Part shown: positions 1 to 24,806 of the stretch, in pieces
How positions within the stretch are numbered: the first letter of the stretch is position 1
Layout: each line of letters begins with the position of its first letter
Assembly (NCBI GenBank): GCA_023807065.1
Contig: JAJJLU010000653.1
Coordinates: 1-24,806 of the forward strand
DNA from: Isotricha intestinalis
Taxonomy: Eukaryota; Ciliophora; Litostomatea; Vestibuliferida; Isotrichidae
Direction of reading: 5' to 3'
Length of the DNA: 24,806 nucleotides
Translations under genes and position numbers: made by a program
The notes under the pieces: generated by a model
The model's database searches: none
The model's input: the letters and a program-made list of their open reading frames with translations, nothing else
What the model was told of the DNA's origin: nothing

Positions 1-25
1 CAATCCCCAATCCCCAATCCCCAAT
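1..25. repeat. Telomeric repeats, CCCCAAT type (left chromosome end)
   Basis: Three complete CCCCAAT units (5-11, 12-18, 19-25) follow a partial CAAT at 1-4. The C-rich strand lies at the 5' edge, as expected for a left telomere whose G-strand reads ATTGGGG toward the end. The array stops abruptly and unique AT-rich DNA follows. The unit resembles the CCCCAA of Tetrahymena-type ciliates with one extra T. That the window begins at a true macronuclear chromosome end is inference. Confidence 0.85.
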
Positions 26-7959: not shown

Positions 7960-9925
7960 ATGAATTCAAAGATTAGAGATATTGAAAATCCTACTGATAG
8001 ATGGGAATTAAGGTAAATTGTAATATTAGATATTTAAGAGTATTTAATAAAATAATTTAGTGTGTATAAGATTTAGTGAATATATTAGGCTGTTTGAATA
8101 TTTGATAATAATAATAGGGAGTATATTAAATAATAATATTAGTGTGTAAGAAATTTAATAATAAATAAGCATGTAATCATTAAATTAAAAATAGTATGTA
8201 TAAAATAAAATAATGAATAGCAAGTAATAATAAAATAAAAGAAGTTTGTAAATAAGATTATTAATGATAGTGGGTAAAATATATATATAAAGAAAGAAAG
8301 TAAAATAAATTATAATGTAAAAAGGGAGTAAATAAATAATAAAGTAGGAAGTAAAATATATTATAATATATAGAATGTAAATTAAAAATAAAAATAAGAA
8401 AGTAAAAATAAGAATTAAAAATTAAGCCAGTAAGATAATATTTTAATTAATTATAGTTAGTAAAAATATTATTAATTAATTATAGTTAATAAGATAATAA
8501 AATTAATTAATTATAGGATGTAATATAATATTATTAATAAATATAGGATGTAATAAAAAATTATTAATTAATTATAGGGAGTAAGAGAATATTATTATAA
8601 ATAAAGGAAATAAGATAATATTGTTTATTAATTATAGTTAGTAAGATTATATTATTTATTAAATATAGTTAATAAGATCATATTATTAATTAATTATAGG
8701 ATGTAATATAATATTATTAATTAATTATAGATGGTAAGATTTTAATTAATTAAGTTTGTAAGATCATATTATTAATTAATTATAGATGGTAAGATAATAT
8801 AATTAATTAATTATAGGAAATAAGATTAAATTATTAATTAATTATAGGGAGTAAAATAATATTATTATTTTATTATAGAATGTAATATAAATTATTAATT
8901 AATTATAGGAAGTATGATAATATTATTAATTAATTATAGCATGTAATATAATAATATTAATAAATTATAGGAAATAAGATAATATTATTAATTAATTATA
9001 GAATGTAATAAAATGTTATTAATTAATTATAGAATGTAATAAAATATTATTAATGAATTATAGTTAGTAAGATAATATTATTAATTAATTATAGTGGGTA
9101 AGACTATATTTTAATTAATTTAGTTAGTAAGATAATATAATTAATTAATAATAGGTTGTAATATAATATTATTAATTAATTAGTATTTAAGATTCTATCA
9201 TTAATGAATTATAGGAAGTAAGATAATATTTTAATTTATTATAGTTTGTAATAAATATTATTAATAAATTATAGGATATAAGAAAATATTATTAATTAAT
9301 TTTAGGAAATAAGATAATATTATTGATGAATTATAGGATATAAAATAATATTATTAATTAATTATAGAATATAAGATAATATTATTAATGAATTATAATA
9401 TTTAAAATAATATTATTAATTAATTGTAGTGGGTATGATAATACTATAAATTAATTATAGGGAGTAAAATAATATTATTAATTAATTATAGTTAGTAAGA
9501 TAATATTATTTTTATTTTTTGATTGTCAATTACTTATAATCTTTAGTGTGTAATATTATTATTATTTATTTTAGCATGTAATTTTTATATAATTTTTTGA
9601 ATGTAATAATATTAATTATATTATAGGATGTAAATATTAAATAATATATTTGAATGTAAAATATTGATTAATTTTAGGCTGTATTAAATATATTAATTTT
9701 AGTGTGTATTTAATATATTTAAATTAGCCTGTATATTATTAATAATTTTAGTATGTAATAATTAATTATATTATTAGTGTGTAATTAATGAAAATAATAT
9801 TAAGGGAGTAATTAGATTAAATTAATAATAAGAAAGTAATATATTAATAATATGATAGAAGGGTGTATATTATTTATATATTTTAGGAAAATTCTAAAGA
9901 ACCTCATGAAATTAATGAATTCTAG
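7960..9925 (+). CDS. Gene split into about 63 single-codon exons; zinc-ribbon-like product
   Basis: Exon 1 (7960-8012) runs from ATG through MNSKIRDIENPTDRWEL and ends in AG, followed by GTAAAT. A 1-nt exon A (8039), or alternatively a 10-nt exon 8030-8039, completes the Arg codon. From 8061 to 9835 come 63 exons of exactly 3 nt, each flanked by an AG-type 3' site and a GT-type 5' site, then a 6-nt exon (9859-9864) and a last exon (9887-9925) reading ENSKEPHEINEF and TAG. The total is 288 coding nt, 95 residues, and about 66 introns averaging about 25 nt, so about 85 percent of the gene is intron. The spliced frame has no stop. It begins its split part with CAGCHYQFWKG and ends it with ICHNDNACPYCGKK, so two CxxC half-sites of a zinc ribbon are recovered only by joining the triplets. 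The middle is acidic (LLDDGELLDMFMEGNEHENN, then LWLVYEFDEDNYWG). I do not recognise the family. An intron-free reading gives nothing. The exact boundaries of a few exons are uncertain, and splicing itself is inferred, not observed. Confidence 0.8.
8013..8429 (+). other. 5' section of the micro-exon array (heterogeneous introns)
   Basis: Exon start and encoded residue: 8061 C, 8089 A, 8118 G, 8143 C, 8170 H, 8195 Y, 8221 Q, 8245 F (or 8242-8247, KF), 8271 W, 8297 K, 8325 G, 8348 E, 8374 N, 8399 K, 8427 P. All introns begin GT (GTAAAN, GTATNN, GTTTGA) and end TAG or AAG. Lengths are about 20-26 nt and sequences differ from one another. Because these introns are not copies of one unit, the constant 3-nt exon spacing cannot be explained as repeat phasing. 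Intron 1 has two possible acceptors (8028-8029 or 8037-8038). Confidence 0.75.
8430..9494 (+). repeat. Central micro-exon array: about 31-bp period, near-identical 28-nt introns
   Basis: Units consist of a 3-nt exon plus an intron that typically starts GTAAGATAATATT and ends AATTAATTATAG; 28 nt is the commonest length, with some at 21-27. Exon start and residue: 8457 L, 8486 L, 8517 D, 8547 D, 8578 G, 8607 E, 8638 L, 8669 L, 8700 D, 8731 M, 8755 F, 8786 M, 8817 E, 8848 G, 8879 N, 8909 E, 8940 H, 8971 E, 9002 N, 9033 N, 9064 L, 9095 W, 9124 L, 9155 V, 9184 Y, 9215 E, 9245 F, 9275 D, 9306 E, 9337 D, 9368 N, 9399 Y, 9430 W, 9461 G, 9492 L. The intron copies are conserved and the triplets are not, and no triplet is a stop. 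The TTAATTAATTA core is palindromic and offers a branch-point adenosine about 8-12 nt before the AG. Nine donors read AT and two TT instead of GT (separate finding). Confidence 0.8.
9495..9886 (+). other. 3' section of the micro-exon array (heterogeneous introns)
   Basis: Exon start and residue: 9522 I, 9547 C, 9575 H, 9600 N, 9627 D, 9653 N, 9678 A, 9703 C, 9728 P, 9752 Y, 9778 C, 9805 G, 9833 K, 9859-9864 KG, then the terminal exon. Introns are about 21-27 nt and individually different. Three exons (9522, 9600, 9653) need a TTTG 3' site instead of AG. If those are not used, three introns of 48-52 nt result and the residues I, N and N are lost without changing frame. The tight spacing of CPYCGK codons (9703-9835) with canonical GT and AG sites is the strongest part of the array. 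Confidence 0.75.
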
Positions 9926-20464: not shown

Positions 20465-21805
20465 ATGGGAATGAATCAAAATAAAAATAAAAATTCAAAA
20501 TTAAAAATAAAATCAATATTAGATTATTGTGAATTAAAAGTTCCATGTACTGAAAATTATAGATTTCAAAATAGGGAAGAAATATATCTCGGAGAAAAAT
20601 ATGAAATATCTCCTGAAGAATTAAAGACAATACAATTAATAAAAAATACAAAAGTAACATTAAAAGAAATTCCTTTAAAAGAAAAACCAATAAAAGTAAT
20701 AATAGACACAGATATAGGAACAGATTTAGATGATGCATTAGCATTATTATTTGCTTTACATAATGATAATATTAATATATTAGGAATTACTACTAATTAT
20801 GGTCCTACAAATTTAAGAAAAGAAATTGCTTCAAAAATATGTGAAATATATTTTAAAAATAATAAATCTAAAAAAGCTTTTCCTATTATTCCTGGATTCC
20901 CTTTTCCAATGGGAACTCATAGAGAATTTTTTTTTGCTGGAAATGAAGGAAAATTAATTTTTAATGATGAAGAAATACTTAAATTATCTGGTGATTGGTT
21001 TTCTTATGATAAAAAGAAGAAATATAATAATTTAGCTTCTGACTTTATAATTAAAACATGTTTAGAAAATGAAAATATTACTTTAATTTCAATTGGTATT
21101 CCTACAAATATAGGAAATGCAATTAAAAAGAATAATAATATCATAAGTAAAATAAAAGAAATTGTTATTATGGGAGGAGGGTCATATTTAACTAAAAGTA
21201 AAGAATATAAAATAGGAAAATATTCTTTAAATCCAAATGATTGGGATAAAAATTTAAATGAAAAAAGTCCTTTTGAATTACCTAAAAATGAAGAAGAAGC
21301 AAATAATTTTTTATATGAAGGAAAGCCAATAATATTATTTCCAAATCATAATTTTTCAGGAGATACATTAGCTACAAAATTAATATTTTCAACAAGTAAT
21401 TTAAATATAAGAATAATCCCACATAATGTAACATCTCAATTTTGGTTAGAAGGTAAATCAATAGATTATTTAATAAAAAAAAGTGAAAATTTTGAAAATG
21501 ATAAATTGAATAATAAATTACAAAGTTCAAGTTACGTTGGTTTATTATTGAAAGCGTGGTTCGAAGTTAGAGGAGGTAATGGAGGTGGACAATGTCCTCA
21601 TGATCCTCTTACTATTTACGAGGCTACTGCAGGAGGGAATCAGAATCATGTTGTTTATGTTCCTGGGACACTTGTTGTTCATGAATGGGCTGCGTATTCT
21701 ACTTTTGTCCCTCATTCTGATGGGAAACATTTATTAGGAATTGAAGCTAAGGATGTTCAAGGATTTTTAGATAAGTTGGAAAAGGGACTTATTATGCAGG
21801 ATTAA
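20465..21805 (+). CDS. Inosine-uridine-type nucleoside hydrolase
   Basis: This enzyme family hydrolyses ribonucleosides to base and ribose for purine/pyrimidine salvage, using a bound calcium. The Asp-rich motif IIDTDIGTDLDDALALL is at residues 79-95 (typical DTDPGxDDA, here with a two-residue-longer form). The central IKEIVIMGGGSYL (230-242), NHNFSGDTLATKLIFSTSN (294-312) and the C-terminal CPHDPLTIYEATAG with H379-D380 complete the calcium site and active site. The 446-residue length exceeds the usual 310-340 because of about 75 extra N-terminal residues and a Gly-rich loop (GGNGGGQ, 370-376). No signal peptide. The last 270 bp are clearly less AT-rich than the rest. The same family is common in rumen and gut bacteria, so transfer is possible but untested. 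An internal piece is duplicated at 24675-24806. Confidence 0.88.
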   Translation: MGMNQNKNKNSKLKIKSILDYCELKVPCTENYRFQNREEIYLGEKYEISPEELKTIQLIKNTKVTLKEIPLKEKPIKVIIDTDIGTDLDDALALLFALHNDNINILGITTNYGPTNLRKEIASKICEIYFKNNKSKKAFPIIPGFPFPMGTHREFFFAGNEGKLIFNDEEILKLSGDWFSYDKKKKYNNLASDFIIKTCLENENITLISIGIPTNIGNAIKKNNNIISKIKEIVIMGGGSYLTKSKEYKIGKYSLNPNDWDKNLNEKSPFELPKNEEEANNFLYEGKPIILFPNHNFSGDTLATKLIFSTSNLNIRIIPHNVTSQFWLEGKSIDYLIKKSENFENDKLNNKLQSSSYVGLLLKAWFEVRGGNGGGQCPHDPLTIYEATAGGNQNHVVYVPGTLVVHEWAAYSTFVPHSDGKHLLGIEAKDVQGFLDKLEKGLIMQD

Positions 21806-24674: not shown

Positions 24675-24806
24675 AAAATTAATTTTTAATGATGATGAAA
24701 TACTTAAATTATCTGGTGATTGGTTTTCATATGATAAAAAGAAGAAATATAATAATTTAGCTTCTGACTTTATAATTAAAACATGTTTAGAAAATGAAAA
24801 TATTAC
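24675..24806 (+). pseudogene. Truncated direct duplicate of nucleoside hydrolase gene interior
   Basis: These 132 bases match 20950-21081 with two substitutions (24696 T for A, 24729 A for T) and no gaps, on the same strand at an offset of 3725. In the parental frame this is about codons 163-206. Both changes fall at third codon positions; one is silent (Ser) and one is Glu to Asp. Homology begins abruptly at 24675: upstream bases do not resemble the gene and carry a stop. The copy continues off the window, so it may be a 5'-truncated pseudogene, a later exon of a diverged paralogue, or an assembly artefact. Confidence 0.8.

Follow-up and report, generated by a model that had tools for sequence, protein, structure and literature searches.

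Architecture of the gene

The window, as we call the whole 24,806-nt stretch of Isotricha intestinalis DNA analysed here, is a 24.8-kb contig of a 57.3-Mb assembly, has a G+C content of about 15–16% and begins at a contig end with the telomere repeat (CCCCAAT)n (positions 1–25, forward strand). According to the available parts of the sources, this repeat also forms the telomeres of the gut ciliates Entodinium caudatum, Muniziella cunhai and Balantidium ctenopharyngodoni, and M. cunhai uses the standard genetic code; this repeat and the very AT-rich genome fit a trichostome (gut) ciliate. The window holds several long uninterrupted reading frames of up to 1120 codons, and an Rfam search of it returned nothing at the gathering threshold. 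By eye, a segment at about 24700–24806 seems to repeat part of a nucleoside-hydrolase-like frame (20465–21805), as either a second copy or an assembly effect.

On the forward strand, a gene spanning 1966 nt (7960–9925) was decoded, with its final exon model settled using paralogues as a guide. In this model, 63 three-nt exons are preceded by exons of 53 nt and 1 nt and followed by a last exon of 39 nt. Joined together, the exons provide 282 coding nt, or 93 residues, with a single stop, at the end; introns take up 1684 nt, about six times as much. Among the 65 predicted introns, 23 are 28 nt long and one is 59 nt, the others measuring 20–27 nt. The first exon (7960–8012) encodes MNSKIRDIENPTDRWEL plus the first two bases (AG) of the next codon and shares 81% identity with the first exon, likewise 53 nt long, of a close relative, L056 (array loci other than the window are given L numbers). 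It is followed by predicted intron 1 (8013–8038; 26 nt, GT...AG) and by the 1-nt exon, an A at 8039, which completes AGA (Arg). All 63 three-nt exons come after it, between 8061 and 9864, and are in phase 0; 63 of the 64 internal exons are multiples of three. They begin with an N block of 14 exons (8061–8401) reading CAGCHYQFWKGENK, in which every exon has AG before it and GT after it. Then comes a linker (8427–9494), where the exons lie mostly between near-identical 28-nt introns and where AT donors occur, an ATT (Ile) exon behind a TG acceptor (9522–9524) and a C block of 13 exons (9547–9864) reading CHNDNACPYCGKG, with the exons at 9600–9602 and 9653–9655 also behind TG acceptors. The last exon (9887–9925) encodes ENSKEPHEINEF and ends with TAG. 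Two other models were dropped. A 10-nt exon 2 (ATATTTAAGA, giving RYLR) conflicts with paralogues, which read WELR-C with a 1-nt exon at this point, and leaving out the Ile and Asn exons that follow TG acceptors would remove residues that are present in paralogues.

A sequence-only reading had proposed that the locus is a gene of about 63 one-codon exons encoding some 95 residues free of stops, flanked by readable coding ends, with AG-NNN-GT at each exon. For the window, the one-codon exons stand, as paralogous triplets align residue by residue, splicing itself being inferred, and both coding ends recur in paralogues. The frame is open as well, although the decoded product has 93 residues, and joining the triplets to the ends gives this frame only once the 1-nt exon at 8039 is added. 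The AG-NNN-GT rule describes most exons but not all: of the 63 donors, 53 are GT, nine AT and one TT, and of the 63 acceptors, 60 are AG and three TG.

The exact three-base spacing is far from what base composition would give. AG-NNN-GT occurs 50 times within 8013–9887, compared with a mean of 5.44 and a maximum of 13 in 500 dinucleotide shuffles, and each of the other spacings (0–2 and 4–12) occurs 0–7 times in the same interval, so that only a spacing of three is enriched. Over both strands of the whole window, AGNNNGTAA was found 46 times versus 5.74 expected, a count reached in none of 100 shuffles. Moreover, a decoder supplied with nothing but codon frequencies, weights for splice sites and a broad prior on intron length, and with no preference for exon length, picked 32 three-nt exons among 38, but hit a wrong stop at 9295. 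As had been noticed beforehand, the spacing is kept where introns are unrelated to each other, at both ends of the array.

Paralogues indicate that the triplets encode protein

Six genes (the window gene, L035, L036, L048, L049 and L050) were compared over their first 14 triplets; L033 was excluded, since no path made of triplets throughout would fit it. Homologous triplets share 73% of nucleotides versus 34% for others, a value matched in none of 2000 permutations. By comparison, identity is 69.3% between introns in matching positions and 68.2% between non-homologous ones, a very small excess that nevertheless lies above all 300 permutations. In the N-terminal triplets, two Cys residues and a Gly are invariant, and Tyr, Phe and Glu are kept in five of the six genes. 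Furthermore, differences among homologous triplets include silent ones (TGT/TGC, GGA/GGG, AAA/AAG). L056 shares the window layout (53-nt, 1-nt and 3-nt exons); its triplets are 83% identical to those of the window gene over 16 positions, and homologous introns are 82% identical versus 71%. Such likeness of the introns is to be expected if L056 is a more recent duplicate.

The 1-nt exon between WEL and the first Cys is found in nine of the 12 decoded family-1 genes. It is A in the window gene, L033, L035, L036, L048, L050 and L056 and G in L049 and L059, and completes AGA, AGG, AAA or AAG, the choice between A and G being silent. It was not seen in L046; in L042 and L057, the beginning of the domain is missing. 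Near the other end, the codon pairs P-I, P-K and P-M form one 6-nt exon in L035, L048 and L050, whereas the matching P-x codons of the window gene and L036 are two 3-nt exons; thus, the intron varies while the frame is kept. In paralogues, the C block decodes as CYNDNACPNCG (L036), CYNNNACPNCG (L042) and CYDNACPMCG (L050). Overall, both the architecture and the protein-coding nature of the triplets are well supported by these sequence comparisons.

The readability of the first and last exons on their own would also fit removal of 8013–9886 as a single intron, with the triplets left untranslated. However, joining the 53-nt exon directly to the last exon would put the latter out of the ENSKEPHEINEF frame, and the frame so lost recurs in paralogues as KEAH (L042, L048), KEAY (L036) and KEAN (L050), with more divergent last exons in L033, L035, L046 and L049. 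As triplet conservation would also be left unexplained, we regard removal as a single intron as very improbable.

Across paralogues, the family-1 domain approximates WELR-CxxCxYxFxxGEE-linker-ICxNDNACPxCG-KEAH, with deviations such as CxNxF and CSSCG in L049 and CPICR in L035. Like zinc-ribbon-like domains, the window protein has two CxxC pairs, CAGC and CPYC, both of which are present in most paralogues, and its sequence suggests that it probably binds zinc. Searches with a 96-residue version of the protein (RYLR included and Ile taken at 9398 instead of 9522) gave nothing above the cut-off in Pfam, E-values of 1.1 or worse against L37Ae chains and no relative at E 10 in the protein database; later queries found no relative there at E 1. 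Within the same genome, a contiguous WELRCxxC DNA pattern was absent, and a protein search for an uninterrupted copy of the domain returned only the gene's own last exon and one weak match (E 1.3, 30% identity).

Array genes differ in what precedes the array. The window gene, L036, L046 and L056 each have their own short exon at the start. A protein-kinase and B-box region lies ahead of the array in L048 (Pfam Pkinase, E 7.8e-42; B-box, E 8.7e-4, below cut-off) and, by eye, also in L035; in L059 the array is preceded by a B-box (E 1.1e-4, below the Pfam cut-off), and in L049, by eye, by a coiled coil. L033, which resembles L050 by eye, had no Pfam match. Family-2 arrays follow trypsin-like peptidases, with L054 matching Trypsin_2 over the cut-off (E 8.3e-7) and L040 and L038 giving trypsin-like matches below it. 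A query with the family-2 N-terminal linker had 13 matches, 12 of which end at residues 26–31, where the array starts in decoded members; the thirteenth extends to residue 43 with three internal stops. In L053, the sequence N-terminal to the array weakly matches an ADP-ribosyltransferase (E 7.6e-4, below cut-off), and L055 is almost entirely array and cysteine-rich. The kinase, B-box, trypsin-like and perhaps ADP-ribosyltransferase N-termini recall effector or immune-type proteins.

Splice sites

In the N blocks of the six genes, all 84 donors are GT and all 84 acceptors AG, and in the last 12 exons GT and AG each account for 68 of 72 sites, with AT at two of the donors. In the linkers, GT makes up 196 of 251 donors, and the 55 others include 39 AT donors; introns there often start with ATAAG instead of GTAAG. 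AT donors are absent from the N blocks. Given the non-GT donors, part of the linker exons may be skipped or no longer functional. It is conceivable, although we would sooner doubt it, that only a subset of the exons is constitutive, the conserved ends always being joined and the linker exons often or always skipped. The gradient of GT donors from the ends to the linker points in this direction, and the frame survives the skipping of any 3-nt exon, but most linker donors are GT. This reading is compatible with one-by-one removal of the introns, rather than exclusive of it.

The TG acceptor before the Ile codon is shared by the window gene, L035 and L036, whereas L048, L049 and L050 have AG there; by eye, the TG acceptor before the next Asn is common to the window gene and the end of L056. 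The exons behind TG acceptors were taken as used because their residues are shared with paralogues. GT...TG introns are likely at 9520–9524, 9598–9602 and 9651–9655, as well as in L035, L036 and L056, and TG is also the end of an ordinary intron predicted in L049. In the genome, a single U1 snRNA scores above the Rfam cut-off (C831:209-368), with the canonical ACTTACCT near its 5' end. In their mostly GT...AG ends and in a U1 predicted to pair with the donor, the predicted introns agree with U2-type spliceosomal introns.

Linker introns and triplets

TRF reports a repeat with a period of 31 and 35.5 copies at 8429–9510. Here, as the sequence-only reading had remarked, variable triplets lie between conserved introns: in the window linker, intron cores are 86% identical and triplets 38%, and over the four arrays measured the ranges are 85–92% and 32–41%, respectively. 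Linker introns are 28 nt long in the window gene and L048 and 33 nt long in L040 and L054. One duplication, of 12 units, can be made out in L048 (codon match 0.38 at lag 12). However, simple tandem duplication is not enough to account for the linkers, because it would carry the triplet along. The remaining pattern needs introns that are copied into, or homogenised between, the triplets, or else strong selection that favours a variety of residues. Intron types are shared between arrays on different contigs.

Arrays across the genome

A genome search for further AG-NNN-GT arrays, which had been proposed as a check, was run on the 57.3-Mb assembly. A three-exon pattern with 3-nt exons matched 343 times, compared with no match in the reversed control. 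Over the whole assembly, the same pattern with 4-nt exons and that with 2-nt exons had no matches, the latter matching nine times in the reversed control. Arrays occupy at least 52 places on at least 49 contigs. Some contigs start or stop inside arrays, which may therefore be under-assembled.

The window and 27 further stretches, all picked because they matched the pattern, were decoded. Taking the best gene per locus, these 28 loci contain 1,251 three-nt exons; 24 of them have at least 15 and four have fewer. None of the 28 reaches 15 when read backwards, the maximum being two exons, in one locus. The decoder used later draws on codon frequencies and gives preference to 3-nt exons, and linker sequences are therefore approximate. 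The largest number of three-nt exons within one gene, 124, is found in L053.

Chains were also built without regard to codons, from AG-NNN-GT and intron length alone. This gave 26 chains with 734 triplets, which in their best frames contain two stops (one each in the chains of L043 and L053) versus 35.5 expected. Single chains are mostly too short to be significant on their own, although those of L053 and L054 are significant and those of L055 and L057 nearly so. Codon-blind chains of at least 12 were absent at spacings 1, 2, 4–9 and 12. The longest unbroken run, 107 consecutive triplets in L054, has no stops in one frame and five and 18 in the others. Seven of the 26 chains (in L032, L034, L040, L044 and L054) are closed in codon phase and open with codons split across exons. 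Thus, the unit of the arrays is three nucleotides plus a phase and not the codon: the one-codon unit perceived in the window does not extend to the genome, where the constant is 3 nt.

Ciliates cut internal eliminated sequences from their DNA during macronuclear development, and the spacers, being short and AT-rich, could in principle be such sequences in a germline (micronuclear) contig. However, the contigs of the window and of seven other array loci (L033, L039, L040, L043, L044, L046 and L047) end in (CCCCAAT)n telomeres, as macronuclear chromosomes do. Moreover, the spacer ends are GTAAG...TAG-like, fitting the 5' end of the genome's U1, and by eye no flanking direct repeat is apparent. 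It is therefore hard to believe that the spacers are eliminated at the DNA level. A number of arrays are found only a few kb from a contig end capped by a telomere, the distance being 8.1 kb in the window.

Least credible of all is that the locus is a non-coding minisatellite in an AT-rich genome with an accidental AG-NNN-GT rhythm: the 31-nt repeat reported by TRF would suit it, but the spacing holds where the introns are unrelated, paralogous triplets align into one protein while introns hardly align, a mere repeat would not exclude stops from 734 triplets, and the pattern-matching chains of viral contigs are short and mostly monotone. Those viral contigs comprise 22 stretches with one pattern match each, six of which (L010, L011, L017, L025, L028 and L030) give chains of 6–11, monotone or of few codons and mostly with repetitive triplets (e.g. 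SSSSSSS, LLLLLLLL); one of the six, in L030, has a spacing of four (AG-N4-GT).

A probable mechanism

Taken together, the comparisons make it very probable that the window gene consists of coding pieces parted by 65 short predicted introns that are likely spliced out one by one, and that such arrays recur in the genome. One-by-one removal would probably be carried out by the ordinary spliceosome acting on U2-type, mostly GT-AG introns. Introns of 20–35 nt would be recognised as units (intron definition), since an exon of 3 nt is too small for exon definition. Removal would proceed in sequence, with each ligation extending the exon ahead of the next donor. In the window gene, all but two of the 63 phase-0 introns (61) would introduce a stop or a frameshift if retained. 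Exon size may be held at 3 nt by the fact that loss or duplication of a unit keeps the frame. Since retained introns disrupt the product while lost 3-nt exons leave it in frame, the arrays would tolerate skipping and the gain of units. They may grow by duplication of exon-intron units, as in the 12-unit case of L048, with near-identical linker introns spreading, or being homogenised, independently of the triplets. A far bolder conjecture, which we consider rather unlikely, is that codon-by-codon splicing provides effector-like enzymes, often encoded near telomeres, with arrays of 3-nt cassettes, so that any residue of a recognition domain could be left out in frame and a single locus would yield a huge family of variants, intron copies marking the exons while the codons diversify.

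In splicing theory, exons cannot be smaller than certain limits, and programs for gene finding and alignment generally take them to exceed a few bases. Conserved domains encoded on runs of up to 107 three-nt exons would thus be missed by standard annotation. With the arrays, one can ask directly whether intron definition alone is enough for the spliceosome and in which order adjacent introns are removed. In addition, they raise the questions of how accurate splicing is when one mRNA of the window gene would take 65 events, of how introns multiply, given that those of the four arrays measured reach 85–92% identity and the intervening triplets are close to random, and of whether exons that leave the frame intact serve to diversify proteins joined to kinase- and protease-like domains.

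Relation to known systems

Introners, or introner-like elements, are near-identical introns present in many copies. The linker introns resemble them in being near-identical at many sites (cores 85–92%), but the copies here lie 3 nt apart inside one gene. Micro-exon genes (MEGs) of Schistosoma have exons that are multiples of three, as are 63/64 here, and both kinds of genes are composed largely of very small exons. However, in the accessible portion of the source, MEG exons are about 6–36 bp long (PMC8673669), whereas the arrays have exons of 3 nt, up to 124 per gene, and the internal exons of the window gene (63 of 3 nt and one of 1 nt) fall outside the 6–36 bp that defines MEGs. Introns of a few tens of bases further set the array genes apart from MEGs, which are reported to produce protein variants through alternative splicing. 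Very short spliceosomal introns are also known from the ciliates Nyctotherus and Stentor, but the excerpts available for these two do not mention runs of 3-nt exons.

The bicycle genes of aphids likewise evolve fast as a family and contain numerous unusually small internal exons, almost all in a single phase. According to the available part of the source, they have about 17 exons on average, and their small internal exons are mostly in phase 2 (PMC9168663), whereas exons here are 3 nt long and, in the window's family, in phase 0, and the proteins are different. Our literature search, which covered open-licence PMC papers, found no gene made of runs of 3-nt exons. An isolated 3-nt micro-exon encoding one residue is described for Drosophila homothorax (PMC7392893); it has the same size and coding capacity as the exons here but, as far as the excerpt goes, is a single alternative exon and not part of a run. 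Finally, one-nucleotide exons kept across relatives are reported for plant APC11 and VPS55 in the accessible parts of two papers (PMC4674806, PMC8831610). The 1-nt exon of family 1 is similarly conserved among relatives; however, the plant exons are described there as isolated cases, whereas here the single base opens a run of 3-nt exons.
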